This document shows, piece after piece, positions 9,886 to 17,138 of a stretch of 64,000 bases of DNA. The stretch spans positions 124,001-188,000 of the forward strand of contig NZ_JNBA01000036.1 in the NCBI RefSeq assembly GCF_000760295.1, in the 5' to 3' direction. This DNA comes from Prochlorococcus sp. MIT 0701. Its GTDB lineage: Bacteria > Cyanobacteriota > Cyanobacteriia > PCC-6307 > Cyanobiaceae. Positions within the stretch are counted from its first letter, which is position 1; every line of letters starts with the position of its first letter. Below the pieces are notes generated by a model. It was not told the DNA's origin and searched no databases. It saw nothing but the letters and a program-made list of their open reading frames with translations. Both the position numbers and the translations under genes were made by a program.

Positions 9886-10149
9886 GTATCCATAAACACC
9901 AAATTTTGAATTTCACACAAATGCTCAGTTTTGTTCAATCTGATACCGCCAATACCCTCTTCGTTAATGCTTAATAAGTTTATTCGCAGCGTGGCCTGAC
10001 TCCTCAACAGCCCTAACTCAGCCAAAAGATGCTGAGCCCAGAATGTATTCAAAGACACCAAATTTTTGATTTCAGACAAATGCTCGATTTTGTGCAATCC
10101 GATACCGCCAATACCCTCTTCGGCAAGGCTTAATAAGTTTATTCGCAGC
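9886..10149. repeat. Two 105-bp direct repeats upstream of nirA
   Basis: Copy A is 9886-9990 and copy B is 10045-10149. I aligned them without gaps and counted 92 identical positions of 105. They are offset by 159 bases (53 codons). Both lie in a minus-strand open frame (9843-10220, 125 codons from the ATG at 10220) that would encode a repeated GIGGI-x-L-x-K-x-EHL-x-EI-x-NLV segment after a hydrophobic start MVLTCIAKFAIFVIEI. Whether this is a real gene, a decayed one or a duplicated leader is unclear. Each copy begins GTA-N8-CAC, one base off the NtcA consensus. Confidence 0.7.
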
Positions 10150-10256
10150 AGACCTTTGCTCGACAACGAGATGATCTCAATGACAAAAATAGCGAATTTG
10201 GCAATGCAAGTTAAAACCATGATCAATTTTCCCAATTTTATTTTCAACACAGAATC

Positions 10257-11885
10257 ATGACCACAATTTCTCATATAAAGCCATTTCTTCAAAACAAGAA
10301 ACTAAATAAAATTGAACAAAATAAGGCTATCAAGGATGGATTAAAGGTTGGTTCTGAACTAGAAACCTTTGCTCAGATTGGTTGGGAACAGGTGGATAAA
10401 ACTGATCTGGAGCTACGCCTAAAATGGTATGGGATGTTCTGGCGCCCCAAAACCCCTGGCAAGTTCATGCTCCGGCTCAGGGTGCCCAATGGCATCCTCA
10501 GCAGCCACCAGATGAGAGTGGTCGCCTCAATCGTGGGCCGCTACGGAGAAGACGGCAGTTGCGACATCACAACACGCCAAAACCTACAGCTTCGTGGTGT
10601 TCTACTGAGCGATCTTCCCGAAATCCTCAGACGTCTTGAAGAGGCAGGTCTCAACACAATCCAATCAGGTTTTGATAACCCTCGCAATGTCACAGGAAAT
10701 CCACTAGCTGGCATTGATCCTCTTGAAATTGTTGATACTCGCCCATACACAACTGAACTACAAGATTTCCTCACCAATAACGGGGAAGGCAACCATGAAT
10801 TCTCCAACCTGCCCCGCAAATGGAATACGGCAGTTGCAGGGGCCCGCGATAACTTTCTTCTACACAACGACATTATCTTCCACCCAGTCAAACGCGATGG
10901 GGTGATGGGTTTCGGGGTCTGGCTCGGAGGAATCCTCTCCTCGCAGATGAACGACTATGCACTGCCTCTTAATGCCTGGGTCAAGCCCAATGAAATCTGT
11001 CGGCTCACCGGCACTATTGTAACGCTATGGCGAGATAACGGTGAGCGCAACAATCGCCCCAAGGGCCGGTTCCGCATGTATCTCGACAGCGTGGGCCTCA
11101 AAGCCTTCCGCACCATGGTCGAGGAAAACTTTGGGCCTCTTACCCCCGATCCAGGCTCGGTGTTCGACGACAAACCACGCTCCCATTATGGAATCAACCC
11201 TCAGAAACAAGAAGGGCTTTACTACGCCGGGCTACATATCCCGGTAGGCCGGCTAACCGCCGAAGATCTCCAAGATCTGGCTAGTGCCAGCCTTCACTAT
11301 GGCAATGGCGAGATTCGTCTAACCGAAGACCAGAATGTGATTCTGGTGGGTCTAGCCAGCGACAACCTAAACAGCTTCCAGGCTGATCCACTACTACAGC
11401 GTTTTTCACTCGAGCCCGGTTCCTTTGCCGCCGGCACTGTCTCCTGCACCGGCAACACCTACTGCAGCTTCGCCCTCACCAACACCAAAGATCAGGCCAT
11501 CAAGATGGCTCGTGAATTAGACGAGGAACTCGAGCTCCCAGAGGAACTCAAAGTCCACTGGACTGGATGCCCCAATAGCTGTGGCCAGGCCTACATGGGT
11601 GCAATCGGCCTCACAGGAACCAAAGCCCGTGCACCCGAAGGAGGCAAAGGCATGGTTGAGGCCTATGACCTCAGCCTTGGCGGTAACCAAGGCCCCAATG
11701 CCCGAGTAGGGGAACTGCACCGTAAAGGCATTCCCAACAGCGAATTGAAAAGCGTGCTGCGGGAACTGCTAATCGAACGCTTCGGTGCTCAACCTCGTAG
11801 CCAACCGAAGCAAAACAGCGACCCTTTCTCCAACTTCATGAACTGGTTCAGCAATTTAGGCGAAAACAGCAGCCCATCCCCTTGA
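10257..11885 (+). CDS. nirA: Ferredoxin-nitrite reductase NirA with a C-terminal motif tail
   Basis: 542 residues. Reduces nitrite to ammonium with six electrons from ferredoxin, using a 4Fe-4S cluster and siroheme. The four ligating Cys are visible at 397 and 403 (CTGNTYC) and at 438 and 442 (GCPNSCG). The siroheme-enzyme repeats begin MLRLRVPNGILSSHQM and YAGLHIPVGRLTAEDL. The catalytic body seems to end at LIERFGAQPR (residue 514); a tail of 28 residues follows with DPFSNFMNWFSN at 522-533. The same motif occurs twice in the small ORF downstream. The first 25 codons are unusually A-rich. It heads a rightward cluster with the small ORF, focA and a HEAT-like gene. No consensus NtcA site was found just upstream. 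Confidence 0.97.
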   Translation: MTTISHIKPFLQNKKLNKIEQNKAIKDGLKVGSELETFAQIGWEQVDKTDLELRLKWYGMFWRPKTPGKFMLRLRVPNGILSSHQMRVVASIVGRYGEDGSCDITTRQNLQLRGVLLSDLPEILRRLEEAGLNTIQSGFDNPRNVTGNPLAGIDPLEIVDTRPYTTELQDFLTNNGEGNHEFSNLPRKWNTAVAGARDNFLLHNDIIFHPVKRDGVMGFGVWLGGILSSQMNDYALPLNAWVKPNEICRLTGTIVTLWRDNGERNNRPKGRFRMYLDSVGLKAFRTMVEENFGPLTPDPGSVFDDKPRSHYGINPQKQEGLYYAGLHIPVGRLTAEDLQDLASASLHYGNGEIRLTEDQNVILVGLASDNLNSFQADPLLQRFSLEPGSFAAGTVSCTGNTYCSFALTNTKDQAIKMARELDEELELPEELKVHWTGCPNSCGQAYMGAIGLTGTKARAPEGGKGMVEAYDLSLGGNQGPNARVGELHRKGIPNSELKSVLRELLIERFGAQPRSQPKQNSDPFSNFMNWFSNLGENSSPSP

Positions 11886-11937
11886 GCTGCGATCGCTAAA
11901 CCACCGTTCTTAGATCAATCATCTATCAAGCCCCACC

Positions 11938-12081
11938 ATGCAATCGACTTCCCAAGCACGTGATCTTTTCTCTCGCTTTGTCAACTGGTTAAGCAACAGC
12001 GGTCACGACAAGCCTGCAATCAATCAAAAAGAAGGTGGCCGAGATGTCTTCTCACGCCTGATGAACCGAATCAGCGGCTGA
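11938..12081 (+). CDS. 47-residue small protein sharing a motif with the NirA tail
   Basis: ATG to TGA, 47 residues, too short for ordinary ORF calling. The first half has RDLFSRFVNWLSN and the second half RDVFSRLMNRISG, two copies 27 codons apart. The NirA tail has DPFSNFMNWFSN. The shared pattern is D-x-F-S-[RN]-[FL]-[MV]-N-[WR]-[FLI]-S-[NG], probably a short amphipathic helix, linked by a polar GHDKPAINQKEGG segment. It lies 52 bases after nirA and 46 before focA, so it is likely in the same operon. I do not recognise a family. Small NirA-interacting proteins such as NirP1 are known in cyanobacteria, but homology cannot be judged here. Confidence 0.7.
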   Translation: MQSTSQARDLFSRFVNWLSNSGHDKPAINQKEGGRDVFSRLMNRISG

Positions 12082-12127: not shown

Positions 12128-13039
12128 ATGGATGTGAACACATCCCAAATGGACTACGTCCTGCCCAATGAACTCGTCGACGGCATGATTACTGCCGGCG
12201 GAAAAAAATCCAGTGTCAGTATTAAAAATCTGCTGGTACGTGGTTTCTATTCAGGAGCGATTCTTGGCCTAGCCACCTGCTTAGCCATCACCGTAGGAGT
12301 CCAGTCTGGAATGCCATTTCTAGGCTCCGTTCTCTTCCCCTTTGGATTTGCCAGCATCGTGCTCTTCGGCATGGAGCTAGTCACAGGCAACTTCGCCTTA
12401 TTGCCAATGGCAACCTGGGCTGGGAAAAGCACATGGCAAGCAACCTTCCGCAACTGGATATGGGTTTGGATTGGCAATTTCATCGGCTGTGCATTGGTGG
12501 CTCTATTACTCGCCACAAGCCTGACCAGCGCAGGCACCGTTGAGCCACTTGCGGCAGCCGATGGGGGCAAAGGTTGGGCCGTGATTGCCGCCAAGATCAT
12601 GGCACTCAATAAGGCCAATGTCGTGGCCAAATATCAAGACCTAGGCAGCACTGGTTTCTTCCTCGCGTTCCTACGCGGCATGATTGCCAACTGGCTGGTT
12701 TGTCTTGGGGTCACGATGGCCTTGGTAAGCAAGAGCGTTCCAGGCAAGATCCTGGCCTGCTGGCTACCGATCACAGCATTCCAAACCATGGGAATGGAGC
12801 ACATCGTGGTGAACATGTTCCTGCACACCGCCGGACCCATGCTTGGTTCAGGCGTTTCTTTTGGTCAGGTAATCGTTTGGAACTTCATTCCAGTCACCCT
12901 CGGCAACATCATTGGCGGCATGGTGTTTATCGGCATGCTCTTCTACAGCACCCATCGCACCCAAATGAGCAACGTACTGCCTACGGTTCACGATGAGAAG
13001 CTAGAACGTGAACTCGCCGCCGAACTAGGCGCACGCTGA
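12128..13039 (+). CDS. focA: Formate/nitrite transporter family protein (FocA/NirC type)
   Basis: 303-residue inner-membrane channel with about six transmembrane segments. It begins MDVNTSQMDYVLPNELVDGMITAG, the soluble N-terminal helix of FNT proteins. FGMELVTGNFALLPMATWAG matches the FELFTGN-type omega loop, and GMEHIVVNMFLHTAG matches the second half-site. The pore His is probably the one in GMEHIVVNM. Next to nirA the substrate is most likely nitrite. The upstream ATG at 12123 runs into a stop at once, so 12128 is the start. HEAT-like protein 13052 follows after 12 bases. Confidence 0.95.
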   Translation: MDVNTSQMDYVLPNELVDGMITAGGKKSSVSIKNLLVRGFYSGAILGLATCLAITVGVQSGMPFLGSVLFPFGFASIVLFGMELVTGNFALLPMATWAGKSTWQATFRNWIWVWIGNFIGCALVALLLATSLTSAGTVEPLAAADGGKGWAVIAAKIMALNKANVVAKYQDLGSTGFFLAFLRGMIANWLVCLGVTMALVSKSVPGKILACWLPITAFQTMGMEHIVVNMFLHTAGPMLGSGVSFGQVIVWNFIPVTLGNIIGGMVFIGMLFYSTHRTQMSNVLPTVHDEKLERELAAELGAR

Positions 13040-13051
13040 TCTAGAACATTC

Positions 13052-13768
13052 ATGAGCTTCGATGAAGCCGTTCTCTGGGAACGTCTCAATAAAGTAGGTA
13101 AGGCTCCTCTAGAACCAGACTGGCTGGGGAATGTTTACTGTCCCAGCCTTTCTGCTGATCTACGTAAAGCCTTAGCCGAAAGACTGGGCTTACTTGGTGA
13201 TGATGGCTGGGGAATATTAAAAACCCTGCTTAAGCAACATGGTAAGCAGTCAGAACTCATCCATGCAGCTGGCCTCTGCCATCAACCTGAGGCTCGAGAC
13301 TGGCTCATCCAACAACTTGGTAATGGACAAGAACTGGAGCTCGGGGTGCTACAAGCAATGGCCTGCTGGGGAGCAATAGTGCCAACTTTGCTTATAAAAA
13401 GGGTTTTCAGAGAACCTTCCCTAGCAATGCGCATGGCTGGTCTGGAGTTGTTGAACTTCAAGGCATACCAACTCAGCGATGACGAGCTGCTGAACCTCCT
13501 TGACGACATCCTCAACGACATCCGCGATCCGGTGGTGTTAAGCACCATTCGAATTCTGCAACGACGCGATGGTGTCGACATCAGCAACCGCATTGCCGAA
13601 GTGGCAAGAAAAGGTTCCGAAGCTACAACACGAGCAGCATTACTAGCCCTGGGCTGCATCGGCACATCCAGCAGTCAATCAAACCTGTTCAAGCTCAGCC
13701 AAAGTCTGCCGACTGATCTCCATCGAGACCTAGCCAAAAAACAACTTGCTCAGCAATACAGATCATGA
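13052..13768 (+). CDS. HEAT-repeat-like protein of the nitrite cluster
   Basis: 238 residues, all-helical in appearance. Repeated helical pairs such as GVLQAMACWGAIVPTLLIKR, SLAMRMAGLELLNFKAYQL, DIRDPVVLSTIRILQRRD and SEATTRAALLALGCIGTSSS resemble HEAT/PBS-lyase repeats. It has no signal peptide or membrane segment. It follows focA after 12 bases and is probably in the nirA operon. Cyanobacterial nir operons can encode a NirB protein needed for full nitrite reductase activity; this could be its counterpart, but I cannot show homology. A role as an assembly or regulatory scaffold is inference only. Confidence 0.75.
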   Translation: MSFDEAVLWERLNKVGKAPLEPDWLGNVYCPSLSADLRKALAERLGLLGDDGWGILKTLLKQHGKQSELIHAAGLCHQPEARDWLIQQLGNGQELELGVLQAMACWGAIVPTLLIKRVFREPSLAMRMAGLELLNFKAYQLSDDELLNLLDDILNDIRDPVVLSTIRILQRRDGVDISNRIAEVARKGSEATTRAALLALGCIGTSSSQSNLFKLSQSLPTDLHRDLAKKQLAQQYRS

Positions 13769-15830: not shown

Positions 15831-17138
15831 ATGGCGTCAAGTCTCTATGGGATCGTGACATTCATCCTGACTCATTCCCAATTGCGCCGACCACAGATTC
15901 CCATCTTTCTCTGTGCCTTTGTCACTCTGTTGAACGATCGCCTAGGTGAAACCCTCTTACTGCCATTACTTCCATACCTCCCAGGACGCTTCACAGACAG
16001 CGGCACAATCCTGGGGCTACTTGGAGGTACTTATGCATTGGCTCAATTCGTCGTGGCTCCCCTAATTGGCGCTCTCAGTGATCGCTTTGGCCGCAAACCA
16101 ATTTTAACCGCTTGCGTTGCTGGCTCAGTAGTAGGCCTTGGCTTATTCGCTATCACAGTATGGATTGATTGGAACATACTTCCAGCCGCTTGGATCGGCA
16201 TTGTTCCCCTGATCCTGCTCTTCTCAGCAAGAATCATCGATGGCGTTAGCGGTGGCACAGCAAGTAGCGCCACAGCAGTGCTTGCCGACATCTCAACACC
16301 TGAGAGCCGAGCAAAGGCATTCGGCCTTATTGGCGTTGCATTCGGCCTCGGGTTCATCTTGGGCCCTTATCTCGGTGGCCGCTTAGCAGAGATCAATATC
16401 GCTCTGCCCGGGATAGCCGCCACAGCCTTCGCAGTCGCGAACCTGCTCCTTGTGATCTATATCCTTCCCGAAACACACCCGCCAGCAGCTCGCAATTCCC
16501 TACCAAGCAAAAGAAAACTCAACCCGATCACCCAGCTAGCACAGATCTTTGCCAATCCACTAGTAAGCCGCCTTTGTTTCGCCTTCTTCCTGTTCTTCAT
16601 GGCATTCAACGGTTTCACAGCTGTGCTGGTGCTTTACCTGAAGCAAGCCTTTTCATGGACAGTCGGTTTGGCAGGCCTGACCTTTGCAGTTGTAGGCGTG
16701 ATCGCAATGGTGGTTCAAGGGCTGCTAATCGGTCCACTGGTCAAATCCTTCGGCGAATGGCGGCTCACCATTGCTGGCATTGGCTTCGTCATTGCAGGCT
16801 GTCTGCTATTGCCCATGGCCACTCAGCAGAATTCGATTTCTGTTGTATTCACTGCCGTATCGGTACTAGCCCTTGGCACAGGTCTAGTCGTGCCATGCTT
16901 GAGAGCGCTTGTCTCCAGACGCCTCGGCAACTCTGGCCAAGGGGCAGTGCTCGGTAGCCTTCAAGGCCTACAAAGTCTAGGTACCTTCCTTGGGGCAGCG
17001 GCCGCAGGATTCGCCTACGACCAAATAGGCACTCGCAGTCCCTTCTGGCTGGCCAGCCTCGTACTAGCGGGAGTGATAGCCCTTGTTGCAGGAGGCCTGC
17101 CTGGAAGCAGCAGTAACACAACAATCAAACAATCATGA
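15831..17138 (+). CDS. Major facilitator superfamily transporter (TetA-like)
   Basis: 435 residues with about twelve transmembrane segments. The loop 2-3 signature GALSDRFGRKPIL and the motif-C-like segment GLIGVAFGLGFILGPYLGG place it in the drug:H+ antiporter-1 (TetA-like) group. Both halves are complete. It is probably a proton-driven exporter; the substrate is unknown. The start ATG at 15831 is only 21 bases from the divergent acetyltransferase; a later start is possible because the first 15 residues precede the conserved segment. ppk follows after about 40 bases, and the stop codon lies within a 12-base palindrome (17130-17141). Confidence 0.88.
   Translation: MASSLYGIVTFILTHSQLRRPQIPIFLCAFVTLLNDRLGETLLLPLLPYLPGRFTDSGTILGLLGGTYALAQFVVAPLIGALSDRFGRKPILTACVAGSVVGLGLFAITVWIDWNILPAAWIGIVPLILLFSARIIDGVSGGTASSATAVLADISTPESRAKAFGLIGVAFGLGFILGPYLGGRLAEINIALPGIAATAFAVANLLLVIYILPETHPPAARNSLPSKRKLNPITQLAQIFANPLVSRLCFAFFLFFMAFNGFTAVLVLYLKQAFSWTVGLAGLTFAVVGVIAMVVQGLLIGPLVKSFGEWRLTIAGIGFVIAGCLLLPMATQQNSISVVFTAVSVLALGTGLVVPCLRALVSRRLGNSGQGAVLGSLQGLQSLGTFLGAAAAGFAYDQIGTRSPFWLASLVLAGVIALVAGGLPGSSSNTTIKQS

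Follow-up and report, generated by a model that had tools for sequence, protein, structure and literature searches.

A conserved small protein encoded between nirA and focA in Prochlorococcus and its relatives: a candidate partner of the FocA/NitM nitrite channel

The nirA–focA locus and its repeated motif

The stretch of DNA analysed here (the window) comprises 64,000 nucleotides of Prochlorococcus sp. MIT 0701 (family Cyanobiaceae; RefSeq assembly GCF_000760295.1, contig NZ_JNBA01000036.1, positions 124,001 to 188,000 of the forward strand). Our subject is a 47-residue protein encoded in it by a small open reading frame (ORF) at 11938-12081, between the ferredoxin-nitrite reductase gene nirA (10257-11885; NF007125, 875 bits) and focA/nitM (12128-13039), the gene of a formate-nitrite transporter (FNT) family channel (PF01226, E 2e-64). 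All three, together with a HEAT-like gene downstream of focA, lie on one strand (+). The window FocA is 100% identical across 303 residues to that of genome G029, which we take to be MIT9313. The small protein, recognised by a family profile (A1) and by its substitution pattern (both described below), consists of two copies of the motif D-x-F-S-[RK]-x-[VM]-N-[WR]-[IL]-S with a linker between them: copy 1, DLFSRFVNWLSN (11962-11997, +), is a predicted amphipathic helix, and copy 2, DVFSRLMNRISG (12043-12078, +), is the better conserved half. A third copy, DPFSNFMNWFSN (11820-11855, +), is encoded at the end of nirA; as the NF007125 family model stops at residue 515 of the 542 of NirA, this copy sits in a C-terminal extension that begins at residue 516 (11802-11882, +).

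An earlier, sequence-only reading of the window had placed the small ORF and the NirA tail correctly, and had argued that three copies in two reading frames, one of them past the NirA catalytic body, were hard to explain by chance. The argument stands: searched in all six frames with D.FS...N[WR].S, the window gave exactly three matches (at 11820, 11962 and 12043, in two reading frames), and none was found in 60 simulated first-order Markov windows. Together with the family-wide profile matches and the ratio of nonsynonymous to synonymous substitutions (dN/dS) given next, this rules out chance or incidental repeats.

The same reading had made its case depend on conservation and purifying selection, and both were found. 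In a first search of 201 genomes of the family, 97 had a match to the small protein at E <= 1. Profile A1, built from 16 small-protein members and applied at E <= 0.01, matches 135 of 400 family genomes, a few of which (G049, G318) match solely via the motif on NirA. The consensus, DLFSRFVNWLS-xSGxDKPAINR-xxGSxDxFSRLMNRISG, repeats one motif around a linker. Among 81 unique free copies, motif 1 is conserved at D (90%), S (98%), N (95%), W (97%) and the second S (71%), and motif 2 at D (100%), S (98%), N (96%) and the last S (96%); at least two copies counted as free (L136, L147) seem partly decayed. The median dN/dS was 0.26 over 858 usable pairs (excluding those with a proportion of synonymous differences, pS, outside 0.05-0.72, or with fewer than 35 codons), with 93% of pairs below 0.5 and none above 1. 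The 47-residue ORF is thus a conserved gene under purifying selection.

The hydrophobic moment of the window's motif copy 1 is 0.62, a value reached by 4.5% of shuffles; the amphipathicity of copy 2 is not significant (17% of shuffles reach it). An AlphaFold 2 (AF2) model of the member at locus L041 has helices at residues 10-20 and 37-47, at low confidence.

The small protein belongs to none of the curated families searched. Its best Pfam match (E 0.022) lay below the cut-off, NCBIfam gave none, the best PHROG match had E 0.23, and a PDB profile search returned at best unrelated proteins (E 0.0028) that we take as chance, so that no known family or solved structure fits in these searches. Databases hide some of these peptides under the name 'ferredoxin--nitrite reductase', which 4 of 20 NCBI matches to the small protein bear. 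The earlier description of the small protein as unlisted calls for a qualification: a report of 2022 already has the orthologue of Synechococcus WH7803 (SynWH7803_RSS12335), a small ORF lying between nirA and nitM, of 44 residues and with two short PSIPRED helices, and notes its resemblance to two nitrite reductases (PMC9430850). The gene is co-transcribed with nirA and nitM according to RT-PCR (reverse transcription PCR), and transcriptomics showed strong induction (+193.92 and +238.82) (PMC9430850). The passages of that report bearing on the gene give no family, partner or mechanism; FocA dependence, fusions and broken copies are added here. No later work on SynWH7803_RSS12335 was found in the literature searched (mostly without subscription journals). 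The WH7803 record in our set (L073; L149 is the same place) encodes a 44-residue member between nirA and nitM.

Another small cyanobacterial protein tied to nitrite reduction is NirP1, mostly of 76-86 residues (81 in Synechocystis), with one invariant Cys, three invariant Trp and a predicted beta structure, and not detected in Prochlorococcus (PMC10907346). The 16 aligned members of the present family have 41-49 residues, one Trp and no Cys, and homology to NirP1 is ruled out by these features. Binding to nitrite reductase is a further mark of NirP1; for the present module fused to NirA, AF2 predicts a tail of low confidence (see below).

In a class-level survey 31 of 388 genomes matched, 26 inside the family and five outside, the latter all partial and marginal (E 0.001-0.008). 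The small protein was found in one cyanobacterial family and, as described below, one cyanophage. A nirA–small gene–focA cluster (L096) also occurs in a metagenome-assembled genome labelled Gammaproteobacteria, and a homologue (P0016) in another labelled Euryarchaeota; both bins are probably mislabelled or contaminated.

Association of the small gene with focA and NirA

Co-occurrence was assessed in the same 400 family genomes (NirA cut-off E <= 1e-100), of which 270 have NirA, 154 FocA, 135 the small protein and 133 both the small protein and FocA (Fisher p 2.5e-80, a value that ignores relatedness). Where NirA and FocA occur together, the small protein is present in 132 of 152 genomes; where NirA occurs without FocA, it is missing in 117 of 118. 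The lone NirA-positive, FocA-negative carrier (G122) has its copy in a stretch without nirA or focA (L146), and the other FocA-less positive (G368) is a match of E 0.00985 in a genome that is 54% complete. The positions of the genes tell the same story. Among 93 free-copy loci that differ in sequence (31 repeats dropped), four have no FocA in the stretch; in every one of the rest (89) the two genes share a strand, and a gap of 7-80 bp (median 38) separates the end of the small gene from the focA start, as placed by alignment. NirA adjoins the small gene in 84 of these 89 loci, and in the remaining five lies 1.8-3.5 kb off and is 46-53% identical (in some over part of NirA only). Overall, the small gene follows the presence and position of FocA, not of NirA. 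Of the partners that the sequence-only reading had offered for its docking peptide (the reductase itself, FocA in the membrane, or some other protein recognising the motif), FocA is therefore favoured over NirA.

These counts also separate the small protein from nirX, which occurs with nirA in HLII Prochlorococcus lacking focA (PMC10119275, PMC6370341), the very combination of genes in which the small protein is nearly always missing; identity of the two is ruled out.

Copies in stretches without nirA or focA were seen at L118:3710-3829 (G071), L120:3687-3800 (G100) and L146:3194-3313 (G122). Near the L120 copy, inspection by eye shows a gene for flavodoxin and one that is Pcb/IsiA-like, and L120 and L146 have one neighbour gene in common. 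The window's own genome carries a decayed copy with two stops (L117, contig C26, about 16678-16794), which has neighbouring sequence in common with L118.

The motif recurs on NirA in several branches. When NirA tails were scored by script at the 144 loci where the C-terminus could be read (repeats kept), 18 carried the whole module, 13 motif 1 alone, 7 motif 2 alone and 106 none; by eye, one tail scored as motif 2 (L074) shows both motifs, and several Prochlorococcus tails scored as none resemble a diverged motif 1. The tail type of the window recurs in its clade (L001-L005 and L031-L033, which count three places twice). A FastTree phylogeny of 127 NirA sequences requires a minimum of seven tail-state changes, gains and losses pooled, one of them due to a contig end. 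A docking peptide common to NirA and the small protein, as proposed earlier, is supported by this recurrence, by conservation and by whole-module fusion. The proposal of a simple tether for NirA was too narrow, as the motif is missing from many NirA proteins whose gene lies next to a free copy of the small gene (the 106 of 144 loci above).

Whole-module fusion is exemplified by group g56, whose named relatives are Prochlorococcus single cells and which we take to be 'LLI-like'. Here the small-protein module is fused to NirA; most loci seen also have one free copy (two in L131), and four genomes have none (L081 = L132, L083, L085, L087 = L133). The g56 free copies open with a sequence nearly identical to the FocA N-terminus (MTQSTSQMSYVLPK vs MTQSTSQMDYVLPN, L130), which suggests that they probably arose by a tandem duplication spanning the NirA tail through the focA start. 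The number of tandem module copies in g56 varies from one to three (L131:171-2313, L132, L133).

A close homologue of the small protein is also encoded by a cyanophage. A scan of IMG/VR gave three loci, of which one (L160) was set aside as having only 12 residues in common. The other two records, IMGVR_UViG_3300025118_000016 and _3300037634_005704 (57.5 and 81.0 kb), are identical over 20,144 bp and probably represent one phage. The module lies at L161:10001-10144, 1.6 kb from psbA; about 5 kb beyond comes a gene for a phage DNA polymerase. FocA and NirA were not found on these records (a search without a positive control, on records that may be incomplete), as would be expected if the module acts in trans on host proteins. 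A search of the INPHARED phages with the L004 member found no match.

The charged tail of FocA and decay of the small gene

The position of the small gene directs attention to a published puzzle. Full-length NitM of strains CC9311 and MIT9313 showed no nitrite transport in Synechococcus elongatus, and both became active once the last 63 nt of the gene were removed; the tail-less NitM of CC9605 was active, and a mechanism activating NitM via its tail was postulated (Maeda et al. 2015, PMC4390861). Excess nitrite uptake through overexpressed NitM was lethal to the cells (PMC4390861). The window FocA bears the same type of charged tail, encoded by the final 63 nt of its coding sequence (12974-13036, +) and ending in HDEKLERELAAELGAR; the passages of PMC4390861 bearing on the tail name no candidate for the activating factor. 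A link between the small protein and this autoinhibitory tail, which we suggest from comparison of the genes, goes beyond what had been read from the window before.

The tail is near-invariant where the small protein is free: LERE is kept, and the LGAR end is found in all 108 free-copy loci (repeats kept). In two genomes, G215 and G278, FocA stops early, and its former tail can still be read in a different frame; between nirA and focA the small gene is decayed (aligned to an intact copy, its ATG has become ATT, with indels and stops). The FocA of G215 has 275 residues, with Phe at 65. From these features we take G215 to be CC9605. Phe at 65 is the residue named for CC9605 NitM (PMC4390861).

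FocA tails were also read where an intact free copy is missing, in 20 loci that represent 18 of the 21 FocA genomes that lack the small protein, plus G049 and G318 (G011 and G240 were left out, and G278 was lost to an alignment filter). Ten of them, all of one genus (g9), have an altered tail with KLARE; one (G215) has lost its tail; and one (G049, L113) has an altered tail together with motif 2 on NirA.

Within the nirA–small gene interval of L022 an inverted repeat, GCCGTGAC...GTCACGGC (about 1430-1465), was observed; three marine Synechococcus-like loci have kept the stretch that holds it, and in two of these the small gene is decayed. The repeat might form an RNA hairpin or be an NtcA-like site.

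A possible activator of the channel and the alternatives

We tentatively propose, as a possibility neither to be counted on nor to be dismissed, that the small protein docks on FocA and relieves autoinhibition by its tail. A two-helix peptide encoded just upstream of focA would dock on FocA/NitM; once docked, it would lift the inhibition exerted by the charged C-terminal tail; and the motif copies on NirA tails would recruit the reductase to the channel mouth. From the comparison of sequences we infer the binding, its site, activation as its direction and the recruitment of NirA. A more far-reaching version is somewhat unlikely: a micro-protein that opens an autoinhibited FNT channel, with heads grafted repeatedly onto NirA so that the complex hands nitrite from pore to enzyme, and captured by a cyanophage as an adaptor driving host uptake.

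There are partial precedents. Like the channel considered here, the FocA of E. coli is an FNT channel, and it is controlled by binding of its metabolic enzyme partner, PflB/TdcE (PMC5572259). On the other hand, the enzyme itself binds the N-terminal helix of the E. coli FocA (PMC5572259), whereas here a C-terminal tail would be involved, along with a peptide that is made separately and at times joined to NirA, and the link seen is one of genomic dependence. Small proteins that control transporters are likewise known, as in SbtB-SbtA (PMC7760959). The release and uptake of nitrite by Prochlorococcus matter for oceanic nitrogen exchange (PMC10470740), and no paper naming an activator of NitM was found in the literature searched (again mostly without subscription journals). 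The small gene, co-transcribed with nitM in WH7803 and phylogenetically dependent on it, is a concrete and testable candidate, which makes the decade-old question of how the channel is activated directly approachable; extra handles come from the phage copy and from the fusions to NirA that occur in nature. A further small protein controlling a transporter is GlnK, acting on AmtB; GlnK and SbtB are PII-type folded trimers, in contrast to the present peptide of 41-49 residues with two predicted helices.

Several observations weigh against the proposed activation of FocA. The small protein is missing from 21 of the 154 FocA genomes, and three genomes (G071, G100, G122) have copies away from nirA and focA. 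Eight of the 20 loci without an intact free copy keep the canonical FocA tail, so the tail is not strictly dependent on the small protein, these eight are unexplained by a simple obligatory activator, and a strict rule of covariation between the two fails. Loss of the tail together with decay of the small gene is a single event. Moreover, L148 (G318), which is sister to G215 and G278 in the NirA phylogeny, combines a decayed small gene and motif 2 on NirA with a canonical FocA tail. This indicates that in the G215/G278 lineage the small gene may have decayed before the tail was lost, and it leaves unsupported the opposite order, in which the tail went first and the small gene was then free to degenerate; docking on the channel still agrees with a history in which an activator disappeared and the inhibitory tail was lost later. 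Structure prediction gave no confident docking either. In an AF2 model of the fused module on the NirA of a relative of the window, the tail (pLDDT, predicted local distance difference test, 28-46) did not dock on a body in which 473 of 554 residues are at pLDDT 70 or more, and the small protein tethered to FocA (pLDDT 38-49) showed no confident docking in a model that is weak throughout (mean 63.7, FocA tail 41-52). Finally, co-occurrence fits a co-inhibitor or an assembly factor as well as it fits an activator.

Among other explanations, the small protein may be a regulator or inhibitor of nitrite reductase in the place of NirP1, its link to FocA reflecting mere shared operon membership. This is unlikely given that 117 of the 118 NirA-positive, FocA-negative genomes do without it, that the gene keeps its place at focA even in loci with a diverged nirA kilobases off, and that the AF2 model shows no docking of the fused module on the NirA body. 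Still less likely, the motif would be a generic amphipathic anchor for NirA and the small protein at the cytoplasmic membrane, leaving FocA untouched. An anchor would agree with the hydrophobic moments, which in six of seven chosen motif segments are reached by at most 5% of shuffles (uncorrected), but a free small protein would have nothing to anchor, the conserved polar D, S and N seem, in our judgement, to go beyond the needs of an amphipathic helix, and the FocA dependence would be left unexplained.

The small protein could instead enforce inhibition by the tail, as a co-inhibitor that shuts FocA whenever nitrite threatens to build up. The one lineage in which tail and small gene are both decayed is no less compatible with this role, which is also in line with the killing of cells by excess nitrite uptake through overexpressed NitM (PMC4390861). 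We nevertheless prefer activation, and consider co-inhibition less probable again than an anchor, because S. elongatus, which we take to have no such small protein, is a host in which the tail inhibits by itself (PMC4390861), and because the small gene is induced together with the transporter (PMC9430850). As to that host, no convincing match was found outside the family, S. elongatus not having been searched by name. Lastly, the ORF might be a mere translated leader that couples focA translation to nirA, as would be allowed by its invariable place, 7-80 bp ahead of focA in all 89 distinct loci; constraint at the amino-acid level, the presence of the peptide on NirA tails, and copies without focA nearby in three genomes and a phage make this very improbable.

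Two further features flank these genes in the window. Downstream of focA lies the gene of a HEAT-repeat-like protein (13052-13768, +; PF13646, below its cut-off), which is probably the gene named nirX in the literature. It is outside the small protein–FocA module and follows nirA in six of the eight FocA-less stretches fetched. Upstream of nirA, a direct repeat of roughly 95 bases was recognised by eye at about 9890-10000 and 10050-10155.
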